From contig NZ_JAUSZA010000001.1 of the NCBI RefSeq assembly GCF_030817215.1, forward strand, positions 2,578,501 to 2,642,500: a DNA stretch of 64,000 bases, read 5' to 3'. Each line of letters starts with the position of its first letter. Position 1 is the first letter of the stretch. Made by a program: the position numbers and the translations under genes. The stretch is from Paenibacillus sp. V4I3 (GTDB taxonomy: Bacteria > Bacillota > Bacilli > Paenibacillales > NBRC-103111). The notes under the pieces were generated by a model. That model did not search any database and was not told where the DNA came from. It worked only from the letters and a program-made list of their open reading frames with translations. Of the stretch, positions 7,942 to 24,019 are shown one piece after another.

Positions 7942-8742
7942 CTATGACTGCTCATACCTAGCCAAAGCTCTTTTGGCCGATTCAAGCATTCTCCTTTGCA
8001 AATGATCGCCTTGGGTGACACGCACGCGCTTACCCAAGAAACGAAGTTTGCTAAGGACATATTCGGCTTCATTATTTTGAAAGGTTAATCGGATTGTATA
8101 TGATTCTTGAATTTCATCGTAATCAACTTGCTTCTCAAAACAAGAGAAGGCATACAAAATCCGGGATAATTCTCGATTGTACTCCTTTATAACCTCAATC
8201 GTTGCATGAATCTGACGTTTTTGCAGCAGTTTCTCTATATCTAAACCAATTTGGGCAACTCGCTCAGGAGAAATGGACAACTCTTTGATCGATTCAATTT
8301 TTTCGAGTTTCGTACTCATCATTGCTCGATGTCTGATGTGATACCAGAGCAAGTACCATTCTTTTTTCACCAAGGAATACTCAAGCTTATAGGGAAAAGC
8401 CATTTCATTGGTAAAAGTCCGATCATCCTTCACTCTGTAAGTAAGTTGGATAGCGGCTTGACTCGTAATGAATCGACGTAATGCGCGAAGCATCGGGTGA
8501 TAGACTAGCTTCTCCTTACTTCGAGCTTTCTCAATAAAGGCATCAGAAAAATCCAAGGTATTCTCATCAACTAGGACAGATTCAAGCTTTTCCAATGTCA
8601 CTGAAGTGAAAGCATAGGACGCAGAGGGGTGGTTAAGCATGGTTTTCAGCCATGACCTTTCCTGTGAGGTAATCATGAAAGTGCCCGAATTCTCTAGCCG
8701 CGTAATCATTTGATAGTTAAATATTTTCTCGAACAGGTTCAT
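7942..8742 (-). CDS. WYL-domain transcriptional regulator, second gene of a pair
   Basis: About 266 residues with the architecture of WYL regulators: an N-terminal winged-helix-like part, a central WYL-type beta domain containing KKEWYLLWYHIRHRA, and a C-terminal WCX-like extension ending in RVTQGDHLQRRMLESAKRAL. WYL domains sense nucleic-acid-derived or nucleotide ligands in several defence and repair systems. The ATG at 8742 overlaps the 3' end of the preceding WYL reading frame by about 26 bp, so the two form one transcription unit pointing away from the RtcB gene. A TTG start at 8772 is possible. Likely controls the divergent RNA-repair genes (inference). Confidence 0.8.
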   Translation of the reverse strand: MNLFEKIFNYQMITRLENSGTFMITSQERSWLKTMLNHPSASYAFTSVTLEKLESVLVDENTLDFSDAFIEKARSKEKLVYHPMLRALRRFITSQAAIQLTYRVKDDRTFTNEMAFPYKLEYSLVKKEWYLLWYHIRHRAMMSTKLEKIESIKELSISPERVAQIGLDIEKLLQKRQIHATIEVIKEYNRELSRILYAFSCFEKQVDYDEIQESYTIRLTFQNNEAEYVLSKLRFLGKRVRVTQGDHLQRRMLESAKRALARYEQS

Positions 8743-10043
8743 AATACGTCTCGAGCTCCTTCCACTCCGCAATCATCTCATTCCGAAAATAGATCGGTTC
8801 AAGCACTTCGCAGCTAGATCCGAAGCTTCTAATCCAAGGCTTAATTTCCGTAGTTCCATTAACCTTAATTTCGAAAATAAACGAATCGATCTGTTCTTCC
8901 GTAATCTCTCCCCACTGCCCCTGAAGAAGGACACGATCTTTAATGAAATTCGGCCCCGTATGCGCCTGGGTTAAAAAATCTTACTTTCAAGATAACCGAT
9001 CGTCCGGTATCAAGGACCCAACTATGCTTGATACTCTCCTCCAATACACTTTTCTTCTCATCAAAAAGGATTGAGTCGACAGTCTCACCTTGCTCAATTT
9101 GAGTCATGCCTTCCATACGATATTTCTTGATACCATGCCGGTAATCATAAGCAAGAAGATACCATCGTCCATATTGGTGATCGTAGACAATTTTGAGTGG
9201 TAGTGTTTTCTGCAGCTTCCCTTCCATTTCGCGTTCAAACAATGGATTTGTGTTTTTCGATGAATAGGACTGCGAATTTTTAGGCGAAAAGTATAAGAAC
9301 TCGATTTTGCGGCGTTTTTGGATCGCTGATAGAAGGATGGAAAGATGCGCTTCATCCAAAATACGTGAGTGGTAATGATATTTATAAAGGAATGGTTCTA
9401 TGGATGTTGGCTCGGATGAGGTCCGATTCATATGCTTTTTTAGCCCGTCTCGCAGTAAATAGCCTTGAACGGACGGTACCTGTGTATTCGACATCACATC
9501 AACAAAATCATAGAGGTCAAGAAGCTCATCCTGGCTAAGTTCATGGATTAAATCATTATGTATGCGATAACGATAGGGGCGTGGTCCAGGCACTTTTTTA
9601 ATGACACCGACTTCTTCGAGATATTTCAAGTCGTTTCGAACCGTTTTCTCATCAGGAAGTGAGGAATCGGTTTGGATATCTTTACTACATACATCCAGCA
9701 GCTCAATAGCGGTAAGTGCCTGCTCATTCAAAGCAGTAAGCAAAGTAGAAATTCGTTGACTTTCGGATTCTTTCAATGACTTTGCTCGAAATAAGAACAG
9801 CAGCATAGGATCAGTTGAATCGAAATAGCTGTAGCGCAGCATCTCGGCGAATTCTTTCCTTTGCGTGTCCGGTGCTTGTTGATACATAGTCGCTACGATT
9901 TCTTTTAACCGGCGTAAGGTTTTATCAAAGGTATGAACCGAGATACCGAGCCTCTCCGCAAATTGCTGACGACTGTACGCACCGCTAGTGAGGACAAGCA
10001 TTCGCAGAAATTGAATTTCTTTATCAAAGCTTTCCTTGGCCAT
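8717..10043 (-). pseudogene. Frameshifted WYL-domain regulator (or sequencing error)
   Basis: The first frame encodes 367 residues: a DeoR-like N-terminal helix-turn-helix, a middle region and a WYL domain containing GRWYLLAYDYRHGIKKYRMEGM. It then stops at 8940-8942, just inside the C-terminal WCX domain. A second frame continues without a stop to 8717 and encodes the missing end, including residues NFIKDRVLLQG and EIKPWIRSFGSSCEVLEP, typical of the WCX fold. Removing one base from the run of four C at 8954-8957 joins the frames into about 442 residues. This may be a true inactivating mutation, phase variation at a short homopolymer, slippage, or an assembly error. It faces the RtcB gene, with the divergent starts 157 bp apart. 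Confidence 0.8.
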
Positions 10044-10200
10044 TTGTATCCCTCGCTCTTCATTTCAACCTTTACTTATTGTAACAGGGGAGCGATATGG
10101 AGAAAATGGAAAACTTTTCACCTGTCGTCATACTTTCACCATGTTCGTTCGAAAGGAAATAAGCGAAGATAGCTTTAGAAGAAAAACGGAGGTTAACCAA

Positions 10201-11619
10201 ATGGATATGAAAACAATCGTACACGGCGGTAATCATTATGAAAAGGAACTAGAGCATGGCAATCTACATGTTTTTGCTAACCCGGATGTTTTCCAATCCT
10301 TTGAGAACAAAGTATTCGAAATGGCAGATAATAACCTGCGTATTCCGCGTAATGTGCATATGAGCTATACCCCGGACGCCCATGTTGGTATTGGTACTTG
10401 CATTGGGACAACGGCAGTTTGGAGTATGAAAGACGGGTTCGTTTCCCCATCAATTGTTGGCGTAGATATCGGCTGTGGCATGCGCGTACATACAACATCC
10501 CTGCACAAACGTGATATTCAAGACAAGGGTGTTCGTAGAGCGCTAATCAAAGCGATCGAGAAATATGTTCCAACGAATGAACGAACGAATACGAATTATT
10601 CCGATATCGATATCATGAATGTGGTACAGGACGGGTTAAAGGGACTTCCCGAGAAATACGTTCCGAATGAACAGTGGTTGTCACATGTTGAGGAGTCAAC
10701 ATTCAAGTTTGACCATGCCTACCTTGAGAATTTGCCAGCAAAAATCCGTAAGTATGCCCATGGGCAGCTGGGGACGCTTGGCGGCGGGAACCATTTTATA
10801 GAAATTCAATATCTAGAAGTGGCGGAGGCTCATAAGGATGTAGGGGCAAAATGGGGCTTGTTCGACGGTCAAGTTGTCGTCATGATTCACTCCGGGTCCC
10901 GTGCATGGGGAGCTATGTTGGGTCAAGAATTCACCAAGGTTTTCAGAGAAGCCATGCAAAGCTGGGGAATCGAAAATCCCGACCGGAATCTCTTATATGC
11001 TCCTATTGCAAGTCAAGAAGGGCAAACCTACTTAAATCTGATGTATTCCGCTCTAAACTTTGCGGTAAGTAATCGACATATGATTGCCTTTGGCGTGCGT
11101 GAAGCTTTCAGGGAAGTATTTGGCGGGGATGAAGAGTTGCCTGTTCTATATGACCTCATGCATAACTATGCGCTAAAGGAATTTCACCGCAATCAGCCGA
11201 TGCTCGTTCATCGAAAGGGAGCGACAAGAGCGCTGCCGCCAGGTCATTTCCTGAATACAGCTGCCTATAAAGAAACGGGACATCCGGCATTAATCCCCGG
11301 TTCAATGGGAACCTCATCCTACATTATGGTTGGGAAAGAGGAAGGACTGAAAAACTTCTACTCCATCTGTCACGGTGCGGGCAGAGCGAGATCACGGAAA
11401 GCAACAAAAGAGCTTGTCACCGTCGATCAATTCGCGCAATCGATGAAAGTTGGAACGGATGATGAGATTCTCGTTAATCATCGTTCTCTGCAAACCATCC
11501 TTGATGAATGTCCGCAAGCCTATAAAGATGTGGATCAGATTATTGATAGTGTTGTGGGTGCATCGTTAGCTGATGTGGTGGCGACTTGTAAGCCGATGGT
11601 TGCGATTAAAGGGGTTTAA
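10201..11619 (+). CDS. rtcB: RtcB family RNA ligase, copy 1
   Basis: RtcB joins RNA 2',3'-cyclic-phosphate or 3'-phosphate ends to 5'-OH ends using GTP and Mn2+. The 472 residues contain the full motif set: D-A-H-V-G at 59-63, V-D-I-G-C-G-M with the metal Cys at 92, G-G-G-N-H near 194-198, H-S-G-S-R at 230, L-M-H-N-Y at 321, and C-H-G-A-G-R with the guanylylated His at 391. All expected catalytic residues appear intact. ATG 10201 has GGAGGT at about 10188-10193; the frame stays open upstream to 10036, but that part has no family similarity. It is divergent from the WYL pair and directly upstream of the permuted tRNA-like RNA. A second copy lies 2.7 kb downstream. Confidence 0.93.
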   Translation: MDMKTIVHGGNHYEKELEHGNLHVFANPDVFQSFENKVFEMADNNLRIPRNVHMSYTPDAHVGIGTCIGTTAVWSMKDGFVSPSIVGVDIGCGMRVHTTSLHKRDIQDKGVRRALIKAIEKYVPTNERTNTNYSDIDIMNVVQDGLKGLPEKYVPNEQWLSHVEESTFKFDHAYLENLPAKIRKYAHGQLGTLGGGNHFIEIQYLEVAEAHKDVGAKWGLFDGQVVVMIHSGSRAWGAMLGQEFTKVFREAMQSWGIENPDRNLLYAPIASQEGQTYLNLMYSALNFAVSNRHMIAFGVREAFREVFGGDEELPVLYDLMHNYALKEFHRNQPMLVHRKGATRALPPGHFLNTAAYKETGHPALIPGSMGTSSYIMVGKEEGLKNFYSICHGAGRARSRKATKELVTVDQFAQSMKVGTDDEILVNHRSLQTILDECPQAYKDVDQIIDSVVGASLADVVATCKPMVAIKGV

Positions 11620-11657: not shown

Positions 11658-11752
11658 CATAAATTTGGATGTATGTACGGATGACTTTACCTAGGCTAGG
11701 ATTTCAAATAGTCCGGCAGTGCTCACACATCTCTATGTGTTTGTATACTGTA

Positions 11753-11860
11753 ATGTTCATTTCGGCGTACATTCCCCAGGTGCAGGGGTTCGAATCCCCT
11801 ATCGTGTGGAACGATTAGCTCAGTGGTAGAGCACTCGACTTTTAATCGAGCGAAAAACAT
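11753..11860 (+). ncRNA. Circularly permuted tRNA-Lys(UUU)-like RNA
   Basis: All arms of a tRNA are present, but the 3' half comes first. T arm: stem 11784-11788/11796-11800 with loop TTCGAAT. Acceptor 3' strand: from 11801. Five-base loop GTGGA: 11806-11810. Acceptor 5' strand: 11811-11815, perfectly complementary to 11801-11805. Then T8-A9-like TA, D arm 11818-11832 with loop AGTGGTA, A26, and anticodon arm 11834-11850 with loop CTTTTAA (anticodon UUU, Lys). The GG of the D loop and TTC-A of the T loop needed for the tRNA elbow are kept. The acceptor is closed by a loop with no room for CCA or a spacer. A leader (11753-11764) pairs with the trailer (11851-11860), five plus five pairs around a two-base bulge. 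It resembles a tRNA mimic, as in YrlA-type Y RNAs, or a permuted pre-tRNA; whether it is transcribed is unknown. Confidence 0.72.
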
Positions 11861-12121
11861 CCCCTATTGATTGTGTATTGGAGTCTTCTGTGGCTCTCAG
11901 ATAGCACACTGCACTAAGGCTATGCAGTCTGCAGATACCGATTGCAAGAATGCTTAAAACCGTTTGTTAAATAAAGGGAAGATAGACGGTTTGCTAGTGA
12001 AACCCGACATCTCCAACTAGTTTCAAATGGCTGTTATTCATTACTTGTATTCTTAAGCAGAATTCCGCCCTACTCGCAGGAGGACTCCAAATACGTGATC
12101 TATCATTCAAGGAGGTTTAAC

Positions 12122-13234
12122 ATGTTTAAAAAAGTGACGATACAAAATGACGAACGAGGACTGCTTTTTCGTAAAGGCAGCTACTATAAAAGCTTACAAC
12201 CAGGCACTTATCGGTTGTCTCCATTTTCGGATGATAACGTTGAGATTCTAAATATCATGCACCCTTTTAATGTAAAAGGGAAAGATCTTCAGTTGTTTAT
12301 GCATGACGAAATACTCATACAAGAGCTGGATATTGTGCAAGTTCAAGACTATGAATACGTTCTGCATTATGAAGATGGCAAATTTGTTGGTTTGTTGACA
12401 GCTGGAAGCTATGCCTTTTGGAATGCTTTGAAAAAGCACACCTATCTTCGTACAGATATACGTAATCCTGAATTACCAAAGGAAATTGATCCAGCTATCA
12501 TTCCTAAGCTAATTGGTTATTATCAAACATTTGATGTGGCTAGTTACGAAAGTGGAGCTTTGTTTTACAACCATGTCATGCAAAAGGAGCTTGCTCCCGG
12601 CAAATATTATTTCTGGAAGGGACCTATAGGAGTCTCTGTGAAAACCATCGACCTGCGCCAACAACAAATGGATATGACGGGGCAAGAAATGATGACGGAG
12701 GATAAGGTAACTCTTCGACTTAACTTTGTGTGCCAATATCGTATTGTGAATCCACTTCGAGCGCTTGAAATCAAGTCGTTTGAAGAGCAAATGTACATTC
12801 AACTGCAGCTTGTTTTACGTGAGTATGTTGGTACGTTGAGATTAGATGAATTGCTGAAAATGAAACAGGAAATCACCACCTACGTTTTGTCACGCTTGAA
12901 TGAGAAAAGTCTAGATTATGGCGTGCAGTTCTTATCCGCAGGTGTGAAAGATATTATTCTGCCGGGTGATGTTAAGGATATTCTGAATACGGTCTTGTTG
13001 GCTGAGAAGAAGGCTCAAGCCAATCTCATTACGCGGCGTGAGGAGACAGCTTCTACTCGGAGCTTGCTCAATACGGCTAAGCTTATGGATGAGAACCAAA
13101 CCCTGTTTCGTTTGAAGGAGCTTGAATTTCTTGAGAAGATATGTGAGAAAATCGGGACGATCTCTTTCAATGGTGGAGGTAACTTACTAGAGCAGCTGAA
13201 TTCGCTTGTTGGAGATAAAAACATTTCTAAGTAA
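12122..13234 (+). CDS. Slipin/SPFH (band 7) family protein without a membrane anchor
   Basis: About 370 residues. The C-terminal two thirds form an SPFH domain (roughly 165-300), including E-D-K-V-T-L-R-L-N-F-V-C-Q-Y-R-I-V and the A-E-K-K-A-Q-A-N helix start. The N-terminal region carries three similar beta units with a G-L/A-L-F...PG-x-Y-x-F/L pattern near residues 12-35, 90-105 and 150-172. No hydrophobic membrane segment precedes the SPFH domain. Slipins are recurrent neighbours of RtcB-type repair genes and are thought to be oligomeric scaffolds. ATG 12122 has a strong AAGGAGG at 12110-12116. It lies between the tRNA-like RNA and the small ORF cassette. Confidence 0.82.
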   Translation: MFKKVTIQNDERGLLFRKGSYYKSLQPGTYRLSPFSDDNVEILNIMHPFNVKGKDLQLFMHDEILIQELDIVQVQDYEYVLHYEDGKFVGLLTAGSYAFWNALKKHTYLRTDIRNPELPKEIDPAIIPKLIGYYQTFDVASYESGALFYNHVMQKELAPGKYYFWKGPIGVSVKTIDLRQQQMDMTGQEMMTEDKVTLRLNFVCQYRIVNPLRALEIKSFEEQMYIQLQLVLREYVGTLRLDELLKMKQEITTYVLSRLNEKSLDYGVQFLSAGVKDIILPGDVKDILNTVLLAEKKAQANLITRREETASTRSLLNTAKLMDENQTLFRLKELEFLEKICEKIGTISFNGGGNLLEQLNSLVGDKNISK

Positions 13235-13516: not shown

Positions 13517-13548
13517 CGTCCGCATAATACGAAGAGAGGGTGAGTCCC

Positions 13549-14331
13549 ATGACATTTGATATGAATAAAATAGATAGTGAGCTTAAACGAATTGAACAAG
13601 AGGAAGGCGTGCGGATCCTTTATGCCTGTGAATCGGGTAGTAGAGCGTGGGGGTTTCCATCGAAAGACAGTGATTATGATGTGAGGTTTATCTACGTAAG
13701 ACCTGTGGATTGGTACCTATCCATATTTGAGAAACGAGATGTCATTGAGCGTCCGATCAGCGATCAGCTGGACATCAACGGTTGGGATTTGAAAAAGGCG
13801 CTGAACTTGTTTCGCAAATCGAACCCACCTTTGCTCGAATGGCTCCAGTCGCCGATTCAGTACATGGAGCAATACGGTGTAACGGAGCAAATCCGCCAGC
13901 TTTCACCGTTAACCTTTTCACCGCGGTCCAGTATGTATCACTATTTGCATATGGCCAAAGGGAACTTTCGGGAATATTTACAGGGTGAGTATGTGAAAAT
14001 CAAAAAGTACTTTTATGTGTTACGCCCAATACTGGCTTGCCAGTGGATTGAAGAGCGCGGCAGTATGCCGCCGATGGATTTTGAAGATCTGGTGGAGCAA
14101 ATGCTGCCGGAATCGAAATTAAAACAAGAAGTATATACGTTGTTGACGCGTAAGAAGGCTGGCGTCGAATTCGACTTAGAGCCGAAAATTACGGTAATCA
14201 ACGATTATCTAGATCGACAAATCGCTTATTTTGAAGAAACTGCCAAACATATCGCTGTCTCTGGTGAAAAGCAAGAAGCAGCATTAGATGCTTTATTCCG
14301 AGATGCGCTGAGGGAGGTTTGGGGTTCATAG
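13549..14331 (+). CDS. RlaP-type RNA-repair nucleotidyltransferase (COG3541-like)
   Basis: Polymerase-beta-fold nucleotidyltransferase of 260 residues. The G-S-R-A-W-G motif at 30-35 and the metal-binding D-S-D-Y-D at 40-44 are the GSxxxG and DxD signatures of the family called RNA repair pathway DNA polymerase beta family (RlaP, YcgL-like). A helical C-terminal half follows. Expected activity is nucleotide addition to RNA ends, which would complement sealing by RtcB; the exact substrate is not established. ATG 13549 has GAGAGGG at 13533-13539. RtcB copy 2 starts 16 bp after the stop, so they are one operon. Confidence 0.85.
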   Translation: MTFDMNKIDSELKRIEQEEGVRILYACESGSRAWGFPSKDSDYDVRFIYVRPVDWYLSIFEKRDVIERPISDQLDINGWDLKKALNLFRKSNPPLLEWLQSPIQYMEQYGVTEQIRQLSPLTFSPRSSMYHYLHMAKGNFREYLQGEYVKIKKYFYVLRPILACQWIEERGSMPPMDFEDLVEQMLPESKLKQEVYTLLTRKKAGVEFDLEPKITVINDYLDRQIAYFEETAKHIAVSGEKQEAALDALFRDALREVWGS

Positions 14332-14346
14332 AGAGGAACAAAACGA

Positions 14347-15768
14347 ATGAAAGAAAATTATTTTCAGCAGGTCCAGCTCCCATCGGGAGTCGTCCATGTA
14401 TACGCAGGACCTGAGTTGTTTAAAGCCTTAGAGTATCAAGTATTTCAGATGGCCAACAACAATTTGCAGATTCCAAATCAAGTGTATATGAGCTATACGC
14501 CTGACGTACATGTCGGAGTTGGTACTTGCATAGGCACGACAGCAGTATGGAATTCGCATGACGGCTATGTGTCACCATCTATTGTAGGCAGCGATATTGG
14601 CTGTGGAATGCGAGTGCATATGACGAATTTGCACAAGGATGAGCTGAAGGATGTGAAGCTGCGCCGCAAGCTGGTGAAGACGATCGAAAAGTACTTACCC
14701 GTGGAAGATCATGCACGTGGACATTTCTCGGACATCCGATTGGAGAACATCGTCACCAAAGGACTGCATGGGCTTCCAAAGAAATATATTCCCGACGGCT
14801 ATACGCCTCGAAAGGCGACTTCGTTTACACATGTAGAAAGCAGCAAATTTACTTTGGATGAAAATGTATTGAATCGATTTCCGAGCCATGTTTGGCATCG
14901 ATCACACCGTCAGCTTGGGACGCTCGGGAATGGGAATCATTTTGCAGAGATTCAGTCGATAGAGATTGCGGAAGAGAACCGGGAGGTGGCTGAAGCATGG
15001 GGGCTATTTGATGGTCAAGTGGTCATTATGATTCACTCGGGCTCGCGTGCATGGGGTGGCTCTGTGAGTCAATATTGCAGCAGTGACATGTTGAAGGTGA
15101 TGCGGATGAACGGATTAGGAACGGCCGATCCTAAGTTGTTATTTGCACCTTTAGATCATCCGGCAGCCCAGACTTATGTAAATCTGATGTATTCGGCCCT
15201 CAATTATGCTGTTGTAAATCGCCATCTCATTGCTTATGCCATTCGAGAGGCTGGTAAAGATGTGTTTGGGTCGAAGTTTGAAATGACCACCTTGTATGAT
15301 CTCATGCATAACTATGCTTGGGAGGAGAATCATGAAGGGCAGTCCTATTTTGTTCATCGCAAAGGGGCGACGAGGTCGCTTCCGGCAGGCCATCCAAGCA
15401 ATCCGCAGCCTTATCTAAACACAGGTCACCCTGCGCTGATTCCGGGTTCAATGGGGACATCTTCCTACATTATGGTAGGAGCTCCGGGTGGCAAAGCCAA
15501 CTTTCACTCCATCTGTCATGGAGCAGGACGAATTCGCTCGCGTAGTGCGACGAAAAGATTGATAACGCTGAATGAATTTGCCTCTTCCATGCGAGTAGGT
15601 ACAGATGAGGAAATTGTCGTTAACCAAAGGTCGTTAGAGTCGATTCTAGATGAATCGCCTCAAGCTTACAAGGATGTTGATCAAATTATTGAAAGTGTCG
15701 TCGGAGCGGGGTTGGCTGAAGTTGTAGCCAAGTGTAAGCCTATGGCGGCAGTAAAAGGTGCCAAATGA
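14347..15768 (+). CDS. rtcB: RtcB family RNA ligase, copy 2
   Basis: A 473-residue second RtcB with the same motif layout as copy 1: D-V-H-V-G at 53-57, S-D-I-G-C-G-M with Cys at 86, G-N-G-N-H, H-S-G-S-R-A-W-G, H-R-K-G-A-T-R and C-H-G-A-G-R with the predicted guanylylated His. Extensive identity with copy 1 through the core indicates duplication within one subfamily, with divergence mainly at the N-terminus and around the residue 150-165 insertion. It is co-directional with RlaP and overlaps the AAA gene by an ATGA junction at 15765-15768, implying translational coupling. The pair may have split duties, for example different RNA ends or inducible versus basal repair. Confidence 0.93.
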   Translation: MKENYFQQVQLPSGVVHVYAGPELFKALEYQVFQMANNNLQIPNQVYMSYTPDVHVGVGTCIGTTAVWNSHDGYVSPSIVGSDIGCGMRVHMTNLHKDELKDVKLRRKLVKTIEKYLPVEDHARGHFSDIRLENIVTKGLHGLPKKYIPDGYTPRKATSFTHVESSKFTLDENVLNRFPSHVWHRSHRQLGTLGNGNHFAEIQSIEIAEENREVAEAWGLFDGQVVIMIHSGSRAWGGSVSQYCSSDMLKVMRMNGLGTADPKLLFAPLDHPAAQTYVNLMYSALNYAVVNRHLIAYAIREAGKDVFGSKFEMTTLYDLMHNYAWEENHEGQSYFVHRKGATRSLPAGHPSNPQPYLNTGHPALIPGSMGTSSYIMVGAPGGKANFHSICHGAGRIRSRSATKRLITLNEFASSMRVGTDEEIVVNQRSLESILDESPQAYKDVDQIIESVVGAGLAEVVAKCKPMAAVKGAK

Positions 15769-17075
15769 ATAATGCGCAAAGTATAAGAATTAATGAAGAA
15801 TCAGCGGCTGTATCAGCTCCGTTTAGGTCTGAAGGTGGCTCGCTTACAGCGTATAGGGACTATGCCTATGTATTAGAACGTATTCAATATGTGCTGGGAG
15901 ATAAATATGGTCACCAATTCGAACCCTATTTGAGTGATGATGGAAAAGAAGAGTATTGGGAGCTGCTTGAACAGGATGTGAAGACAGGGTCTAGTGATGT
16001 GCAGTTCGTCACTAAGATCTTAGACCATATGGAGTCACGTGCATTCGGAATAGATGCGGAAAATGAAGCATCGGCTTATCGGACGTTTCCTACACTGCGC
16101 AATAACGTTTTCGCTTACCCGTCCTGGGGAATCGCGTTAGCTAGAGTACCTATCTTTCGCATGAATGGCGTCGGAGAAGAGGATTTTGTTTTTGCTGTGG
16201 ATGATGCGAGTCTGCTGCGTTTTTTGGAGCACGCTCGGCAGCGTCGAAGAGACTTGGATCGGCGACAAGTGACTGTTTTCACGGATGGACCTCATGGAAT
16301 GGAAAAGGAACTGGCTCCTATTACACGCATGGTCGACCGTACGGAGGTCATCATGAAAGACGAAGTGAAGACAGATATTTATCGCTCTATCGATCAGTTT
16401 TTTGCTGAGGATCGTGCCTTTTTCAAAGAGTATGAGCTTCCTTACAAAAGAGGCATCCTGCTTTATGGGAAGCCTGGTAATGGAAAAACAACGCTTGTTA
16501 AATCGATTGCCGGCAGCGTAAAAGCTCCTGTTGCTTATTGGCAAATAACGGAGAACACCGGTAGCGAATCTATTCAAGAGGTGTTTCAAGCTGCGGCTAA
16601 AATGGCGCCAATGATTCTTGTAATTGAAGATATCGACGCTATGCCTCAGCGGGCAAGGTCGTACTTTTTAAACATTTTGGATGGTGCGACTTCCAAAGAA
16701 GGCATTTTTCTCATTGGGACAACGAATTATCCGGAGCAAATTGATCCGGCACTTATGAACCGGGCAGGGAGATTCGACCGTGCTTATGAAATCAAACTTC
16801 CTGACCTAGAGCTGAGACAAATCTATTTGGAGCAAAAGGGGATAGGGAAGCTTCTGAGCGAAGAGATGATTCGCGTAACGGCGAAGCAAACAGAAGGGTT
16901 TACTTTTGCCCAGTTAAATGAATTGTATGTATCGGCTGCGCTTCAGTGGCATTATGAGCAATGCGTGAATATCGAGAAGTTGGTGAAATCGATGAAGTCG
17001 GATCTGCATAAAGGGCAGACAATGTCATGGATGAAAGAGGATGCGGATGTGAGGGTTGGGTTTTTGGTTAGTTGA
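15765..17075 (+). CDS. AAA+ ATPase coupled to RtcB (BCS1/FtsH-like core)
   Basis: A 436-residue protein with a unique N-terminal half (about 1-200) and a C-terminal classical AAA module. Walker A G-K-P-G-N-G-K-T-T is at 235-243, Walker B I-L-V-I-E-D-I-D near 284-291, sensor 1 G-T-T-N at 318-321 and arginine finger N-R-A-G-R-F-D-R at 332-339. All nucleotide-handling residues are present. Its start overlaps the RtcB stop, strongly suggesting the two products work together, perhaps remodelling damaged RNA or RNPs or recycling the ligase. The N-terminal domain does not suggest a known family to me. A terminator-poor 262-bp gap separates it from the next operon. Confidence 0.85.
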   Translation: MNNAQSIRINEESAAVSAPFRSEGGSLTAYRDYAYVLERIQYVLGDKYGHQFEPYLSDDGKEEYWELLEQDVKTGSSDVQFVTKILDHMESRAFGIDAENEASAYRTFPTLRNNVFAYPSWGIALARVPIFRMNGVGEEDFVFAVDDASLLRFLEHARQRRRDLDRRQVTVFTDGPHGMEKELAPITRMVDRTEVIMKDEVKTDIYRSIDQFFAEDRAFFKEYELPYKRGILLYGKPGNGKTTLVKSIAGSVKAPVAYWQITENTGSESIQEVFQAAAKMAPMILVIEDIDAMPQRARSYFLNILDGATSKEGIFLIGTTNYPEQIDPALMNRAGRFDRAYEIKLPDLELRQIYLEQKGIGKLLSEEMIRVTAKQTEGFTFAQLNELYVSAALQWHYEQCVNIEKLVKSMKSDLHKGQTMSWMKEDADVRVGFLVS

Positions 17076-17086
17076 GGATGCAGGTG

Positions 17087-17102
17087 AATTTCCTAGGAAA
17101 TT
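17087..17102. repeat. 16-bp perfect palindrome before the SWIM operon
   Basis: AATTTCCTAGGAAATT, 12 bp after the AAA stop codon. Related AGGAAATT-like half sites recur at about 17262-17267 near a mini-ORF of five codons (17273-17290, with AGGAGG before it). An extended -10-like TGGTATGAA is at 17193-17201. It is a possible operator for the downstream five-gene operon. Confidence 0.4.
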
Positions 17103-17337
17103 ATTTGCAACGACAACAAAGGATTTTTTTGGATTAAATGAACTCAATATGTGAGGATTTCCTCTTTGGCTTCAACCTCCTAGTCATGTAGGTGGTATGA
17201 ACAGTCACAAGGGATATCCTTTTTTTTGTTTTTCTAGTCCTTCGTTCTATTTTAGGAGGAAATTCCATACCCATGAAAAAGGAAAATTAGGAACAGTGTG
17301 GAAACTGTTTGTATAACCAAGTTATGAGGGGTACAAG

Positions 17338-18777
17338 ATGAATTATTTAACGGAATCGTATGTAGATAGTTTGGCGCTTAACAGCAGTGCGATCAAGAAT
17401 GGTAAGGATTTGGTGAAGAAAAATAGTTTTCCGCTGCTCTGTCAGTCGGAGGATGGGACGATCATTTTTGGGGAGTGTAAAGGCAGTGGAAAGGACCCGT
17501 ATCGATGTTCGGTCGATGTGGCGAAAGAGGGGAATCCCGTATTCCGCTGTTCATGCCCGAGCCGTCAGTTTCCGTGCAAACACAATCTGGGTTTGATGTA
17601 TGCCTATACGTCAGGCAAGACATTCATCACTGCACCCGTTCCACAAGATATTGTGGACAAAAGGGAGAAGGCGGAGAAGCGGGAGGAAAAGAAGAAAGAA
17701 CCTGTCGACCCGGATGCTCCAGTTGTTAAGCGCAAGACGAACAAGTCAGCGTTAATGAAGAAAATAGCTGCACAGCTGGAAGGGATCAGTATTGCTGAGA
17801 AGCTTATCCTGCAGCTAGTACAGTCAGGGCTAGGAGGCCTGGACAAAAAGGCGCTGCAAACCGCTGAAGAGCAGGCAAAACAGCTCGGCAACTATTATAT
17901 CCCTGGGATCCAAACGGCGCTTCGTGATTTGACGCTGCAGTTCCGAGCAGAGGAGGATCGGGAGACCGTGTATACAAACGTGATCGAGCAGCTTACCACG
18001 CTGCAAGCATTGATCAAGAAAAGCAGGGAGTACCTCAACAGCAGATTGGAAAATCCAGATCATCCTATGGATACGGAATCAACGTTGGAAGAATGGATTG
18101 GGCATGCCTGGCAAATCGCAGAACTGAGGGAGTATGGTCGCGTTCGCAGCGAGTCCTCGGAATTGCTGCAGTTGTCGTTCCGATCCTATACGGATCAGGC
18201 GAGGGGCGAGTTCATAGATGAAGGATACTGGTCGGACCTACAAAACGGACAGCTCCACATCACAAGAACGTATCGGCCATTCCGTGCAGCGAAATACATA
18301 CGAGAAGAAGATTCTGTATTTCAAGTCGTTGAAGCGAAAGAACTTGCGCAATACCCCGGGGAGCTTAACACGAGAGTGCGTTGGGAGGAAGCGACGTTCC
18401 GCGAAGCTGACTCACTGGATTTTCAGAAAATCCGTGCGTCAGCTCACAAGTCATTCCCAGAAGTCATTAAACAAGTGAAGAATCAGATTAAAAATCCACT
18501 TTCGGACAAGCGCCCTGTCGTACTGCTGCAATTTGCTGAGATCAAGAAGACGGAAACTGCCTATATATTGTTAGATGAACAGGGCAAGCAGATTCCTCTT
18601 GCGGACATTCCATATCTCAGCGAGCCTACGACTCATTTGCTGTCTATGCTAAATAAGACGTTCTTACAGAATCAGGCGATTATGGTTATGTTCGAACACA
18701 ATTGGAAGCATAACAGGCTTGAGGCTCAGCCTTTAAGCATCGTAACGACAAATGAAGTCGTTCGCTTGCTTTATTGA
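17338..18777 (+). CDS. SWIM zinc-finger protein (YehQ-like)
   Basis: A 479-residue protein with a SWIM zinc finger near the N-terminus: the ligands C71, C73, C80 and H82 fit the CxCx(n)CxH pattern. The finger is followed by a charged linker rich in Lys and Glu (about 100-125) and a long helical region. SWIM domains bind nucleic acids or proteins. First gene of an operon whose order is SWIM, HEAT, MoxR, DUF5682, VWA; the same family combination is found as yehQ, yehL, yehM and yehP in E. coli. ATG 17338 follows a GAGGGG site. The function of this system is not established; placement after RtcB genes suggests RNA or RNP work. Confidence 0.82.
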   Translation: MNYLTESYVDSLALNSSAIKNGKDLVKKNSFPLLCQSEDGTIIFGECKGSGKDPYRCSVDVAKEGNPVFRCSCPSRQFPCKHNLGLMYAYTSGKTFITAPVPQDIVDKREKAEKREEKKKEPVDPDAPVVKRKTNKSALMKKIAAQLEGISIAEKLILQLVQSGLGGLDKKALQTAEEQAKQLGNYYIPGIQTALRDLTLQFRAEEDRETVYTNVIEQLTTLQALIKKSREYLNSRLENPDHPMDTESTLEEWIGHAWQIAELREYGRVRSESSELLQLSFRSYTDQARGEFIDEGYWSDLQNGQLHITRTYRPFRAAKYIREEDSVFQVVEAKELAQYPGELNTRVRWEEATFREADSLDFQKIRASAHKSFPEVIKQVKNQIKNPLSDKRPVVLLQFAEIKKTETAYILLDEQGKQIPLADIPYLSEPTTHLLSMLNKTFLQNQAIMVMFEHNWKHNRLEAQPLSIVTTNEVVRLLY

Positions 18778-18801
18778 AGAATAGAATTAGGAGACGAACC
18801 C

Positions 18802-20619
18802 ATGAGTATAGATCTATTGTTTGAGCTGCAGCATGAGGTGCGGCGTTTGTTTATAGCGGGGAGCGGGATGGCGGCGGGCGATTTACGTTTGCAGAAAATG
18901 CTTCCCCAATTGCAGAAGTTAGGCGAGTCGGCTCCGGTGTTTAACCGAATGGCTCAGGCGGTTAGCCAAGTTCTGGACACGGATACGAGTGGTTCAGCGA
19001 GCAGACTTCTAGAGTTAGGCATGCTGTTAAATTCCGTGCTGTACACGCAAGGGAAAACGGAGACGAAAGAGGACCTCGTACCTATGGAAGGAACGGAAGC
19101 GAAGCTTTCGACGTCAATTCCTTACCGCAAGCTGAATCCACTCATTGAGGCATTGACGCAAAAAGGTCAGGGCCGAATGGAGCAGGTTCGTCAAGGGTAC
19201 GACGATGGGTTGTTTCATGATTTCCGGGTCATACCTGCCGCTGTTTCTGCGTTAGACGATAGTTATGTAGAAATACCCGATTTTCTTCATCGAAAGGTGT
19301 TGCCCACACTCGGAATGGAGGCACTCCCCGCGCTTCAGCAGCAATTCCGGCTGGGTGGAGGGAAAGGTGACGCCCGCAGATTGGAACTTATCCATGAGTT
19401 GCTTTCGCTATCTGCCTTAGACATCCTTTTGCAAGCTGCCAAACAGGGTTCAACGGAAGTCCGCTCCACGGCGATTGAGCTTCTGGGGGATTACCCTGAT
19501 CAAGAGGATTTTATTTTGGAGCAAGCTGATGATAAGAAAAAAGAGGTACGCAGAGCGGCCTTATTCGCCTTATCTCGGCTTGGGACGGAGCAAGCGATCG
19601 CTCGCCTTTACAAGGCACTGGGTTCGAAGGATCAGGATCTTGCCATAGAACCAATTCAATTATGCAAGGCCAACGATTTGACTCTCAGCGTCATCGGGCA
19701 TGCGGAAAGTGTGTTGGAGCGAATCGTTCAACGTACAAAGGTGGAAGATTCCGCACAACAGTTGTTGGCGGACATCCGCAGCTTACAAGGCAAAAGAGTA
19801 CCGGAAGTCGTAGATTTCCTAGAAAAATTGCTGTCTACGACTAGTTTTATTGTTCTGGAAACGGAAGCCGTACAGGAGGTAGCAGCTGATCTTCTATTGC
19901 AATTAGATCTGCCTGAGGCAGACAGTTTTGCTGTTACTTTGCATGAGGCGTACAATCGCAAATTTATTGCTTACAGCTTTAGAGCGGCTATCAAGATTCT
20001 TCCTCCAGAGGACGTCTACGAACGCTTTTGCCATGACCTTAAGGATAAAAAGCAGCCTGCGGCTAAGGATTTATTGCGAGTATTGTATGAAGTGACACCG
20101 ACGCTGCTTTACCAAGTAGATGAGCCAGGAGTGGCTGCTTCATCATCCGATTTTACAACATGGGATCCACGATGGGTGCATCTTTTTGTGAAATTGGACG
20201 AGGAAGAGCTCGTGTGTAGATTTGCTCAAGTCCCGGACCCGAAAGTCACGGCGTATCTGGTCAAAAAATGCGAAGAGCTGCCTAATTTTAACCGAAATAA
20301 AACAGCTAATATGTTGTTGATCCTCTTCAGCCAACACTATCAGGATGCGCCAAAGCTGCTCATGGATATATTGGAAAAAGGCGGAGCCAAGCAGTTCTAT
20401 TATTTGGATCGAGTCCAACTTACATTGCTTTCTTTACTGCCAAGGCCTTATGCAGAGAGATTGCAGCTATTCGCAGAAGGGCTATCCTATCAGGGTATGA
20501 AAAATCAATTGCTAGAAATCGCGGAAACGATAGCTGCGAAGCCGGAGCAAACCGAACCGTCAGATAACGAAGAGAAGGGACAGGGATTATGGGGATGGAT
20601 CAAAAGCAAGATGTCGTAA
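18802..20619 (+). CDS. HEAT-repeat scaffold protein
   Basis: A 605-residue, largely helical protein. At least three HEAT-like repeats are visible between about 195 and 290, with the pattern V-R-S-T-A-I-E-L-L-G then V-R-R-A-A-L-F-A-L-S-R-L-G and a DLAIEPIQL unit. No enzyme motif or membrane segment is seen. It lies 24 bp after the SWIM gene and its 3' end overlaps the MoxR start by 31 bp, so translation is coupled. Probable role: scaffold or substrate adaptor for the MoxR-VWA complex. Confidence 0.78.
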   Translation: MSIDLLFELQHEVRRLFIAGSGMAAGDLRLQKMLPQLQKLGESAPVFNRMAQAVSQVLDTDTSGSASRLLELGMLLNSVLYTQGKTETKEDLVPMEGTEAKLSTSIPYRKLNPLIEALTQKGQGRMEQVRQGYDDGLFHDFRVIPAAVSALDDSYVEIPDFLHRKVLPTLGMEALPALQQQFRLGGGKGDARRLELIHELLSLSALDILLQAAKQGSTEVRSTAIELLGDYPDQEDFILEQADDKKKEVRRAALFALSRLGTEQAIARLYKALGSKDQDLAIEPIQLCKANDLTLSVIGHAESVLERIVQRTKVEDSAQQLLADIRSLQGKRVPEVVDFLEKLLSTTSFIVLETEAVQEVAADLLLQLDLPEADSFAVTLHEAYNRKFIAYSFRAAIKILPPEDVYERFCHDLKDKKQPAAKDLLRVLYEVTPTLLYQVDEPGVAASSSDFTTWDPRWVHLFVKLDEEELVCRFAQVPDPKVTAYLVKKCEELPNFNRNKTANMLLILFSQHYQDAPKLLMDILEKGGAKQFYYLDRVQLTLLSLLPRPYAERLQLFAEGLSYQGMKNQLLEIAETIAAKPEQTEPSDNEEKGQGLWGWIKSKMS

Positions 20620-21686
20620 GGTTACCCTCTGAACGTTTATACATCGAAGAATTGGAAGCTTTGAAGAAATTGGATCAGGATGCGAAGCCAGCCGGGTGGC
20701 AGCTTTCTCCGAAGGCGGTACTGACGTTTCTGATTGGTGGAAATGTAAAAGGGGTCGCGATTACGCCAAAATATATTGGCAATAAACGGCTGGTAGAAAT
20801 GGCGATAGCCACGCTGCTGACTGACCGTGCTCTCATGCTGATCGGGGAGCCGGGAACGGCTAAATCCTGGCTTTCGGAAAATCTGACAGCAGCCATCCAT
20901 GGGGATTCTGGCAAAGTCATTCAAGGAACGGCAGGCACGAGCGAGGAGCATATCCGTTATTCTTGGAATTATGCCATGCTGCTAGCGCAAGGACCTTCCG
21001 ATCAAGCGATTATCAAAAGCCCGATTTTCCGCGCAATGGAAACAGGCGGGATCGCCAGATTCGAAGAGATCTCGCGCTGTGCGTCCGAAGTACAGGACGC
21101 TTTGATCTCCATCTTGTCGGAGAAGACGATCTCGATTCCGGAACTGGGCAGAGAAGTGTTCGCTGCAAGGGGATTTTCTATCATCGCAACGGCCAACACG
21201 CGCGACCGTGGAGTGAACGAGATGTCAGCCGCCTTGAAACGTCGATTTAACATCATCGTGCTTCCAGCCCCTTCGGATATTGATACAGAAGTGGAGATTG
21301 TTCGCAAACGTGTCAGAGAGATTTCGACGAGCTATGAATTGAGAGCGTCACTCCCAGGGGAGGAGGCGGTGCGCAAGGTTGTGACGATTTTCCGCGAGCT
21401 GCGCAGCGGGATGACACTCGACGGCAAAGAGAAGGTGAAAGGGCCGAGTGGTGTGATTTCGACGGCTGAAGCGATTTCGCTTCTAACGGGCAGCATGGCG
21501 CTTGCAGGAAGCTTTGGCAGCGGACAGATTAGTGAAGAAGATATTGCCGCCGGGCTGCAGGGAGCTATTGTGAAAGATGAAGAGAAAGACCGCCTCGTAT
21601 GGAAGGAATATCTAGAAAATGTGATGAAAAAGCGGGGATCGACATGGAGAAATCTGTACTTCGCGTGCTCGGAGATGAACAACTAG
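20589..21686 (+). CDS. MoxR-type AAA+ ATPase (YehL-like)
   Basis: A 365-residue MoxR ATPase. Walker A G-E-P-G-T-A-K-S is at 86-93, a Walker B-like F-E-E-I near 158-161, sensor 1 A-T-A-N-T-R-D near 200-206, and the A-L-K-R-R-F arginine region at 215-220. MoxR proteins act with VWA-domain partners as chaperones for assembly or activation of complexes, and a VWA gene closes this operon. The second Walker B acidic residue is Glu in a variant E-E rather than D-E context, as occurs in this family. ATG 20589 overlaps the HEAT gene; an AAGGGA site precedes it. Confidence 0.88.
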   Translation: MGMDQKQDVVRLPSERLYIEELEALKKLDQDAKPAGWQLSPKAVLTFLIGGNVKGVAITPKYIGNKRLVEMAIATLLTDRALMLIGEPGTAKSWLSENLTAAIHGDSGKVIQGTAGTSEEHIRYSWNYAMLLAQGPSDQAIIKSPIFRAMETGGIARFEEISRCASEVQDALISILSEKTISIPELGREVFAARGFSIIATANTRDRGVNEMSAALKRRFNIIVLPAPSDIDTEVEIVRKRVREISTSYELRASLPGEEAVRKVVTIFRELRSGMTLDGKEKVKGPSGVISTAEAISLLTGSMALAGSFGSGQISEEDIAAGLQGAIVKDEEKDRLVWKEYLENVMKKRGSTWRNLYFACSEMNN

Positions 21687-24016
21687 ATCGCAGTCAGGGG
21701 GTTCATGTTTTTGGTATAAGACATTTATCTCCTGCTGGCGCTTTCCACCTGCTGGCTTTCTTAGATGAAGTGAAGCCTACGGCAGTGCTCGTTGAAGGAC
21801 CAAGCGACGCAAGCGGGTTTATTGCTGAACTAACCTCGCATGGCGTTGTTCCGCCGATTGCCATTTTGGCGTATACGGATCAATTGCCAGTAAGGACCCT
21901 GTTGTACCCATATGCTGATTATTCGCCGGAATATCAGGCCTTTCAATGGGCAAGCCGCAACGATGCGCAGGCTGAATTTATCGATCTACCTTCCGAACAT
22001 GCCTTGGCTCTCTACGAGCAAAGGAAACGGAGGTCATCCTCTGCTGAGGAAGAGAGCAATCAGACGGAGGACGACGCTTTTCGGGCGTATGTCCACGAAC
22101 AGAGGACACTGTATCAACAGCTTGCTGAACTGTCGGAAGAACCGGACTACGAGGCTTATTGGGAGCGCCATTTTGAACATAATATGCAAAAAGACGCCTA
22201 CCGCCATGGCATTTATCAATTTTCGGCTCAAATGCGTGATCTGACTGCGGGGCAGGAGTGGCAATTTGCGCCACAGGAAGCGGCTTACAATGAAATTCGG
22301 GAAGCTTACATGCGGCGCAAAATTCAGGATACTATTGAAGCTGGGCACGCTCCTGAGAAAATTGTAGTCGTAACCGGCGCGCATCATGCCTCCGTATTAG
22401 ACTTCCGCTTTCCAGTGATGACGGATGAAGAGATGAAAGGGCTGCCCAAGTCGACAACTAAGCTTACGTTGATGCCTTTTTCTTACTACAAGCTGTCTTC
22501 GCACTCAGGCTATGGGGCGGGGAACCAGGCACCCGCTTATTATGAATTGTTCTGGCAGTGCCTCCAAAAAGGTGATCTGAGCAGGCTACCTTCCTTGTAT
22601 TTCTCACAGGTAGCCGCGTATCTCAGAGAACATGGCACTTATAGATCCACAGCTTCGCTCATCGAAGGTGTGAGACTGGCAGAGGCTCTTGCTGCTTTGC
22701 ACGATGGTAGTCATCCTACGTGGAAAGACCTTCGGGACGCTGCAACCGTATGTCTCGGTCATGGGGAGCTTTCGACAATTGCGGAAGCTTTGGCAAGGAC
22801 AGACGTGGGCACGGCCATCGGCAGATTGCCAGAAGGAGTCAGCCAGACGCCAATTCAAGATGATTTGAACAGAGAGCTCAAGCGGCTCAAGCTGGAGAAA
22901 TTCAAAACTACGGTTGCTACAACCTTGGAGTTGGATTTACGTGAAAACCGCAGGGTGAAGTTGGAGGAAGCTGCTTTTCTGGATTTGAAGCGGTCTGTTC
23001 TCCTGCATCGGCTGGAATTGCTGGGCATTAACTTTGCCAAGAAGCAAAGAGTGAATCAAGACTCCGCATCGTGGGCGGAGAACTGGGTGCTGCAGTGGAC
23101 GCCGGAAGCTGAGATTCAAGCGGTGGAGTCGACCTTGAAGGGGGAGACGATTGAGCTGGCCGCGGCTTTCGTGCTGAAGGAGCGGCTCGATGTTTGCGGC
23201 GATATCGCGGAAGCTTCGCGCATCATTCGCATCGCCTGCGACTGCACGTTGACGCAGCTGATGGAGCAGGCCAAATCCACGCTGCAAGGGCTTGCGGTGG
23301 ATACAGGCAATTTCGAGCAGGTCGCAGGGGCGGCCTACGAGCTGTCGGTGTTGATCCGTTATGGATCGATTCGCCGAATCGAAACGGGTACCTTAGTTCC
23401 GCTGCTTCAGCAGTTATTCCTGCGGGGAACGCTGCTTCTCGTAGATAGCGCGGGCTGCAACGATGACGCCGCTCAGGGCATGGTTCGAGCAATTCAGTCG
23501 CTGCATACAATTGCTCAAGACCATTTTGAAGTGGTAGACGATGGTTTATGGTTGAATAAACTGCAAGAGCTAGCATCGCGTGATGACCGAAATGCAAAGC
23601 TGTCGGGCTTCGCTTTTGCTATTTTGCTTGAGCGCAATGAAATACCGGATGAGCGCGTTGCGACGGAAGTTTCACGTCGCCTGTCACCGGGGATTCCCGT
23701 TGATCTGGGAGCGGGATGGTTCGAAGGCATGTCGATGCGCAACCGATACGCGCTGCTGTCTAGGCAAACGTTGTGGCAGCAGCTCGATGTCTATATCGGA
23801 TCGCTGGAAAAAGAGGCCTTCCAACGTTCACTTGTGTTTCTGCGCCGAGCTTTCGGTTCATTCGAACCGAGGGAGAAGGCATCGGTGGCCGAGATGATGG
23901 GCGATATTTGGGGCGTTGGCGCCGATAACGCCGGAACTGCTTTGCAACACCCGTTAAGCGAGGAAGAGAAGGAGAAGCTGGATGAGCTCAACGATTTTGA
24001 TTTTGGGGATTTGTAG
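21644..24016 (+). CDS. DUF5682 family protein (YehM-like)
   Basis: About 790 residues. The N-terminal region begins with V-F-G-I-R-H-L-S-P-A-G, followed by V-L-V-E-G-P-S-D-A-S and, further on, V-V-T-G-A-H-H-A-S. This matches the DUF5682 family, which has a TraB/EreA-like ring of conserved His and Glu in some members; a hydrolase-like active site is possible but unproven. The remainder is helical and poorly conserved. The family is a regular partner of MoxR-VWA operons. ATG 21644 has GGGGA upstream and overlaps the MoxR gene by 43 bp; the ATG at 21599 lacks a well-placed site. Confidence 0.78.
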   Translation: MEKSVLRVLGDEQLDRSQGVHVFGIRHLSPAGAFHLLAFLDEVKPTAVLVEGPSDASGFIAELTSHGVVPPIAILAYTDQLPVRTLLYPYADYSPEYQAFQWASRNDAQAEFIDLPSEHALALYEQRKRRSSSAEEESNQTEDDAFRAYVHEQRTLYQQLAELSEEPDYEAYWERHFEHNMQKDAYRHGIYQFSAQMRDLTAGQEWQFAPQEAAYNEIREAYMRRKIQDTIEAGHAPEKIVVVTGAHHASVLDFRFPVMTDEEMKGLPKSTTKLTLMPFSYYKLSSHSGYGAGNQAPAYYELFWQCLQKGDLSRLPSLYFSQVAAYLREHGTYRSTASLIEGVRLAEALAALHDGSHPTWKDLRDAATVCLGHGELSTIAEALARTDVGTAIGRLPEGVSQTPIQDDLNRELKRLKLEKFKTTVATTLELDLRENRRVKLEEAAFLDLKRSVLLHRLELLGINFAKKQRVNQDSASWAENWVLQWTPEAEIQAVESTLKGETIELAAAFVLKERLDVCGDIAEASRIIRIACDCTLTQLMEQAKSTLQGLAVDTGNFEQVAGAAYELSVLIRYGSIRRIETGTLVPLLQQLFLRGTLLLVDSAGCNDDAAQGMVRAIQSLHTIAQDHFEVVDDGLWLNKLQELASRDDRNAKLSGFAFAILLERNEIPDERVATEVSRRLSPGIPVDLGAGWFEGMSMRNRYALLSRQTLWQQLDVYIGSLEKEAFQRSLVFLRRAFGSFEPREKASVAEMMGDIWGVGADNAGTALQHPLSEEEKEKLDELNDFDFGDL

Positions 24017-24019
24017 CCT

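Follow-up and report, generated by a model that had tools for sequence, protein, structure and literature searches.

Among the described systems, the closest to the RNA treated here are the SPFH/Band-7 modules and their novel, cognate tRNA-like RNA, which Burroughs and Aravind reportedly described in 2016, and the YrlA RNA (Rfam RF02553). A tRNA-like RNA beside a Band-7 gene of an RNA-repair system, i.e. of the kind attributed to Burroughs and Aravind, is present in a stretch of 64,000 nucleotides of the Paenibacillus sp. V4I3 genome, a single contig of 8.17 Mb (the whole stretch analysed is hereafter called the window). Because that work is said to name such an RNA, we claim no first sighting. 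Four features described below, namely the permuted order, the three domains, the tandem arrangement of modules and the pairing of RNA and slipin away from RtcB, were not seen in Rfam 15 at the positions tested or among the entries listed in our literature searches; no slipin-linked RNA is mentioned in the titles and abstract beginnings listed there, and few subscription papers were covered.

YrlA shares with the RNA of the window the permuted order of T arm, acceptor 3' strand, cap, acceptor 5' strand, TA and D arm, as well as the absence of a CCA end, and RNA-repair operons are known as its setting. One study suggests that its tRNA-like domain inhibits an anticodon nuclease by competition, and it detected no fragments of YrlA (PMC7790460). 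In two further papers, the P. aeruginosa rtc locus is described as containing an SPFH gene (PMC13086221), and both the slipin gene alr0740 and rtcB are described as raised in an Anabaena trcR mutant (PMC10272220).

The three-domain region and its permuted module

The initial annotation described a tRNA-like RNA at positions 11784-11850 of the window, next to an RNA ligase gene. This interval of about 67 nt does not stand alone but covers only domain II, the middle part of a longer region. The whole gap between rtcB and the slipin gene aligns across loci and folds into three domains (11668-12089), and the region of about 420 nt is predicted, from the comparison of loci, to be one structured RNA that is transcribed as such. 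Domain I (11668-11773, plus strand) has a long closing helix and inner hairpins at 11695-11717 and 11719-11746; together these make up helices 1-5 of the alignment A1. Domain III (11879-12089, plus strand) has a long closing helix, a side hairpin, a conserved GAUACCG and a variable inner part. In the aligned sequences, domains I and III covary and frame the tRNA-like module.

The 77 aligned sequences gave 60 non-redundant loci, of which A1 contains 49 and A3 contains 47. Among the 11 loci left out of A1 are L101, L113 and L124, which are without the CUCGA/UCGAG arm, and two loci with long inserts, L108 and L117, are additionally omitted from A3. Since scoring used the very alignments from which the structures had been derived, the structures are favoured in the proportion of paired cells. 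For domains I and II together (49 loci, 56 pairs) 89.9% of the cells are paired, whereas shuffles reach 80.0% and the slid structure reaches at most 46%. The corresponding values of domain III, from 47 loci and 43 pairs, are 89.2%, 76.7% and at most 48%. Changes on both sides were observed in 43 of the 56 pairs of domains I and II, compared with 23.9 in shuffles, and in 34 of the 43 pairs of domain III, compared with 25.5; in domain I considered separately, 31 of 41 pairs change on both sides (49 loci). The single-sequence folding energy of the whole RNA is only mildly low (z -1.28), and the case for the RNA therefore rests on comparison. Apart from tRNA and YrlA, no Rfam match was found in the region. 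Candidate sigma-70-like sites, two on the same strand and one on the opposite strand, were rejected, as three were found against a mean of 2.4 in shuffles; the sigma-70-like site at 11722-11749 falls inside domain I.

Read from 5' to 3', domain II (11784-11850) consists of T arm, acceptor 3' strand, cap, acceptor 5' strand, TA, D arm, a single A and anticodon arm, exactly in the order initially proposed, and reading of the sequence confirms every pair that had been named. The T arm (11784-11800; AGGGG TTCGAAT CCCCT) has its stem at 11784-11788/11796-11800. In the acceptor-like hairpin (11801-11815), ATCGT at 11801-11805 pairs with ACGAT at 11811-11815, and the cap GTGGA (11806-11810) closes the end without a CCA. 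The TA linker (11816-11817) lies directly 5' of the D arm (11818-11832; GCTC AGTGGTA GAGC; stem 11818-11821/11829-11832), and a single A at 11833 stands between the D arm and the anticodon-like arm (11834-11850; CTCGA CTTTTAA TCGAG; stem 11834-11838/11846-11850). All these elements are on the plus strand. When 11782-11853 is folded alone, the minimum-energy fold returns the four stems, and the elbow residues are also in place, with TTCGAAT in the T loop and AGTGGTA in the D loop. The folding energy of this segment has a z of -1.26, and as 24 of 200 shuffles fold equally well, the energy by itself is no proof of the module. ARAGORN reported no tRNA in the window, and the Rfam search gave a forced match to an ordinary tRNA at 11809-11873 (36.3 bits).

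The comparison of loci, which had been suggested as a check, showed the stems to be conserved in related loci with compensatory changes. A T-arm match occupies the expected position in 76 of the 80 named slipin loci, i.e. the loci around orthologues of the slipin of the window, and species differ by paired changes in both the acceptor and the T stems. Across the 49 loci of A1, 95.4% of the cells of the T stem and 95.1% of those of the acceptor stem are paired, with both-side changes in three of five and four of five pairs, respectively. The D stem of 4 bp, present in the window as stated, was found in a minority of relatives: of 104 upstream regions 81 could be parsed, with L073 being read spuriously at a hairpin further on, and the stem was found in 29 of these, in three sequence versions. 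UGGUA, UGGCA or UGGUU occurs within the next 26 nt in 44 of the 52 regions that are without the stem; UGG, with which the D loop would contact the T loop, is mostly kept.

The CUCGA/UCGAG anticodon-like arm was matched in 79 of the 104 distinct upstream regions, and its pairing is complete throughout the 49 loci of A1, an alignment that excludes the three loci without the arm. Among the loops of seven nucleotides (n = 68), C32 is present in 64, U33 in 66, A37 in 59 and A38 in 61, and positions 34-36 are variable; in the other 11 of the 79 matched arms the loop is shortened to five or six nucleotides. The arm keeps the look of an anticodon loop without a fixed anticodon, and the Lys(UUU) identity given in the initial annotation is not conserved. 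Since the D stem is often absent and loops of five or six nucleotides occur, the tRNA mimicry is incomplete.

The slipin gene and the reach of the RNA

The gene downstream of the region (12122-13234, plus strand) encodes a slipin, a Band-7/SPFH protein of 370 aa. Its SPFH domain is recognised by PF01145 (1.9e-24), and its predicted architecture comprises three tandem beta units, the SPFH domain and a long C-terminal helix; no strongly hydrophobic stretch or membrane-like helix was found in it. The closest slipins in the named loci are those of Paenibacillus species (89-92% identical).

For the searches we used R1, a covariance model of domains I and II that was built from 49 sequences. R1 matches 79 of the 80 named slipin loci with 55.1-185.7 bits, 48 of them being among its building sequences. 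The single miss is L148, in which the slipin match starts at residue 69, and the three loci without the anticodon-like arm are matched nonetheless (93-113 bits). In hand-compiled lists of the genomes of the family (104 genomes), a full slipin, defined as a match below E 1e-100, was counted in 45, and the RNA is present in all 45. Two genomes have only the RNA (G022 and G057), both with slipin debris, and 57 have neither, among which G055 and G098 retain slipin fragments.

We then considered 50 loci around R1 matches (L149-L198, of which L161 and L193 are one locus and several repeat genomes of the family). A slipin match lies beside the RNA in 49 of them, the sole exception, L186, having a decayed slipin. 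The slipin fragment of L185 overlaps the RNA match, and in L149 (1930-2575) the slipin match is without the SPFH part (residues 163-313) and the RNA is recognisable.

The RNA ligase gene that was initially highlighted as the neighbour, an rtcB at 10036-11619 (plus strand), does adjoin the region in the window. In the relatives it mostly does not: RtcB was found directly upstream in nine of the 80 named loci, RtcB downstream in six and RlaP downstream in 17, at least one of these arrangements occurring in 25 loci, and these counts refer to RtcB and RlaP of the window's type. Six of the 50 loci (L183, L184, L189, L195, L197 and L198) have the RNA and the slipin without RtcB or RlaP nearby, and their flanking genes look unrelated by eye. 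The constant partner of the RNA is the downstream slipin, not RtcB. With RtcB or RlaP next to the RNA and the slipin in only 25 of the 80 named loci, it is a minority of loci that supports a link to RNA repair.

In the window, the slipin gene is followed on the plus strand by genes for the RlaP nucleotidyltransferase (13540-14331) and a second RtcB (14347-15768), and by further genes of the locus (15765-25231) that encode an AAA ATPase, a protein with a weak SWIM match, a HEAT-repeat protein, an AAA_5 ATPase, a DUF5682 protein and a VWA_CoxE protein. The last four of these stand in one run at 18802-25231. As Ro60 combines HEAT-like and vWA parts, it is conceivable, by analogy, that the run with the HEAT-repeat and VWA_CoxE proteins represents a split stand-in for Ro60. 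Two WYL-domain proteins are encoded on the minus strand at 7942-8772 and 8940-10043, divergently from the locus, and in L194 reading frames similar to WYL-domain proteins were seen by eye near the RNA and the slipin.

At its default cut-off, R1 fires in 295 of the 296 genomes of the order, hence at least 53 bits were required. With this threshold the RNA was found in 114 of the 296 genomes, the weakest match scoring 53.3 bits and the next at most 42.7 bits; the matches below the cut-off that were compared (G001, G003, G004, G021 and G062) are tandem ordinary tRNA genes. In the class (398 genomes), 17 genomes pass an E value of 1e-9, the weakest with 47.2 bits, and 10 of them are outside the order; only six to eight candidates were scored per genome under strict filters in these large searches, so that misses are likely. 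A slipin that is 59-75% identical lies downstream of the RNA in all 10 loci outside the order. The slipin search in the phylum (199 genomes) gave two matches, the genome of the window and L234, whose RNA scores 110.2 bits, and no slipin was found in phage records. A simpler IUPAC pattern of T arm, acceptor and D arm was dropped, as it mostly found tandem ordinary tRNAs (89 of 104 genomes).

In six of the 10 loci outside the order (L215, L218, L221, L222, L223 and L224), which belong to other families of Bacilli, two permuted modules in tandem could be recognised by eye. Each module has a T arm and a capped acceptor, and the second follows the D arm of the first. The loci L179-L198 and L215-L224 were picked by hand among the R1 matches, and 49 of the 114 genomes with matches in the order were opened.

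More distant slipins were looked for in a plasmid collection, where the protein search gave 44 records, in eight of which the match spans at least 80% of the protein; five of the nine best matches were opened. T-loop sequences are present in about the last 400 nt before the slipin gene in all five, from Subdoligranulum, Citrobacter, E. coli, Burkholderia and Photobacterium; in the last, where only residues from 145 onwards are matched, the slipin start is an estimate. Inspection by eye shows a T arm, a capped acceptor and a UGG, hence a permuted order, in the leaders of E. coli and Citrobacter, and the Subdoligranulum leader shows a permuted module together with CGGATACCG like that of domain III. 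The leaders of Burkholderia (L232 7675-7744) and Photobacterium (L233 5185-5322) contain unpermuted tRNA-like elements (RF00005, 44-54 bits). The anticodon arm of the Burkholderia element has a very short loop. R1 gave only 9.5-27.8 bits on the five distant leaders, and homology of the flanking domains is not supported there; the minimum-energy fold of the E. coli module alone does not give the module shape.

Among 5426 E. coli genomes, this leader, which is shorter than the region in the window, was found in 1624 and the slipin in 1623 (about 30%). At least 99% identity to the query was observed for 1304 of the 1624 leaders, compared with 762 of the 1623 slipins. The leaders are at L235 5001-5311 (E. 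coli HS, whose record has no RNA annotation) and L231 7700-8010. In Citrobacter the gene order is rtcR, a gap, slipin and nucleotidyltransferase. Upstream of both the E. coli and the Citrobacter leaders there are TGGCAC-type sequences, which resemble sigma-54 promoters.

Possible roles of the slipin-linked RNA

We lean slightly towards a reading in which the conserved, predicted RNA (about 420 nt) is a trans-acting RNA partner of the slipin and would present a permuted tRNA elbow to the machinery that handles tRNA. The leader of the slipin transcript would give rise to this RNA, which would fold as drawn, and the slipin, with its SPFH fold and no membrane-like helix, would assemble into a ring or cage holding domains I and III. 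Because its acceptor end is capped without a CCA, the mimic would be unchargeable, and it might serve as a dock or decoy for enzymes that read the elbow, such as tRNA nucleases, RtcB, RlaP and tRNA-modifying enzymes. The slipin and the RNA would then play the part that Ro60 and YrlA have in rsr-yrlBA-rtcBA operons, i.e. that of a scaffold for the repair or triage of broken tRNA. A more far-reaching and decidedly speculative version would be that the soluble slipin with its three beta units cages the 420-nt RNA and draws in anticodon nucleases, RtcB and RlaP, as a portable tRNA-triage RNP that extends from Bacilli to E. coli, with mimics that are permuted, doubled or unpermuted depending on the lineage.

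The main alternative, which we regard as possible but clearly less probable, is that the RNA acts in cis: as part of the slipin mRNA leader, it would use its tRNA-like domain to sense tRNA-handling factors or tRNA damage and would set slipin expression accordingly. The RNA lies directly 5' of the slipin gene, with some 20 nt between its end and the AGGAGG at 12110-12115, it stands beside the slipin in the loci opened, and in E. coli and Citrobacter the leaders sit between the apparent sigma-54 promoter (by eye) and the slipin. As there is no terminator-like site between the RNA and the slipin, a purely cis-acting leader fits their co-occurrence equally well. However, with its length of about 420 nt and two covarying domains besides the tRNA-like one, the RNA is large for a leader, neither a terminator-like site nor a helix covering the ribosome-binding site is found in the structures drawn, and the RNA is still recognisable in G057 (G057:C27:204324-204518), where the slipin has decayed with stops.

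It is improbable, in our estimation, that the RNA is a member of the YrlA family that lost its Ro60 partner. The two have in common the order of T arm, acceptor, TA and D arm, and RF02553 gives a sub-threshold match at 11783-11832 of the window (model positions 30-81; 32 bits, with a gathering score of 69). The same permutation was also observed in the YrlA RNAs that lie next to TROVE genes at six loci of the family (L236-L241), where RF02553 scores 38.9-53.9 bits, all below 69, four of the six match over the full length of the model (1-114), and the Y stem is visible by eye. Five of these controls were chosen through the IUPAC pattern near TROVE and L241 through TROVE alone, from 75 TROVE genomes. 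As a side observation, the RF02553 cut-off looks too strict for the YrlA of Paenibacillaceae. The Y stem that binds Ro60 in YrlA was not seen in the slipin-linked RNA, in which domains I and III flank the module instead; unlike YrlA, this RNA has an anticodon-like arm with its own loop, and its partner gene is the slipin. Moreover, R1 gave no match in the six YrlA loci. The initial remark that a Ro60-like TROVE gene is missing held for the whole genome, in which no TROVE match was found. In the order (296 genomes, again from hand-compiled lists), TROVE is present in 24 of the 114 RNA-positive and 51 of the 182 RNA-negative genomes (Fisher p 0.22; family p 1.0), and the RNA and TROVE thus occur independently. 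The slipin-linked RNA and YrlA share the module and differ in their flanks and partner gene, and the earlier description of a permuted tRNA mimic without CCA and in YrlA-like order is supported in this sense.

Circularly permuted tRNA genes are known from archaea and algae, and their 3' part of the tRNA precedes the 5' part, as it does here. The order of the parts, the stems and the adjoining RtcB of the window, which could act as the ligase, would agree with a bona fide gene of this type, whose precursor is cut and rejoined into a working tRNA. We consider this very unlikely: the slipin-linked RNA has no CCA, its anticodon varies across orthologues and its loop may have only five or six nucleotides, no D stem was found in 52 of the 81 regions that could be parsed, RtcB is upstream in only nine of 80 loci, and ARAGORN is silent. 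With no conserved anticodon, no CCA and a dispensable D stem, a working tRNA is not expected. Finally, tRNA debris or an assembly artefact, which is suggested by 35-36 nt on the side of the D arm and acceptor 5' strand with 91-94% identity to real tRNA genes of the genome, is refuted by conservation in place, compensatory changes, dozens of independent assemblies and the R1 matches in the named slipin loci, so that the earlier exclusion of a chance origin stands.

Comparison with known RNA-protein systems

A covariance model of this RNA would be of use to annotators, who would otherwise read it as a tRNA fragment or as empty sequence. In being large, conserved and structured it resembles OLE, ROOL, GOLLD and raiA, and it matches none of these in Rfam. 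If the RNA and the slipin form a particle, as in the trans-acting reading that we favour, bacterial SPFH proteins would gain an RNA partner, and the role of tRNA mimics in RNA repair would become testable in a commensal strain of E. coli.

Such a particle would recall the vault, which is composed of MVP and vault RNA. The likeness would lie in a protein of SPFH type whose predicted tandem beta units precede the SPFH domain, and in a noncoding RNA as the proposed partner. This comparison was weakened when it was tested with a model of slipin residues 1-178 alone, and one source describes the MVP domains as occurring only in the vault (PMC13100048). The tRNA mimicry by a rotated chain that is known from YrlA and Ro60 is here tied to slipins, in a much larger structured RNA.
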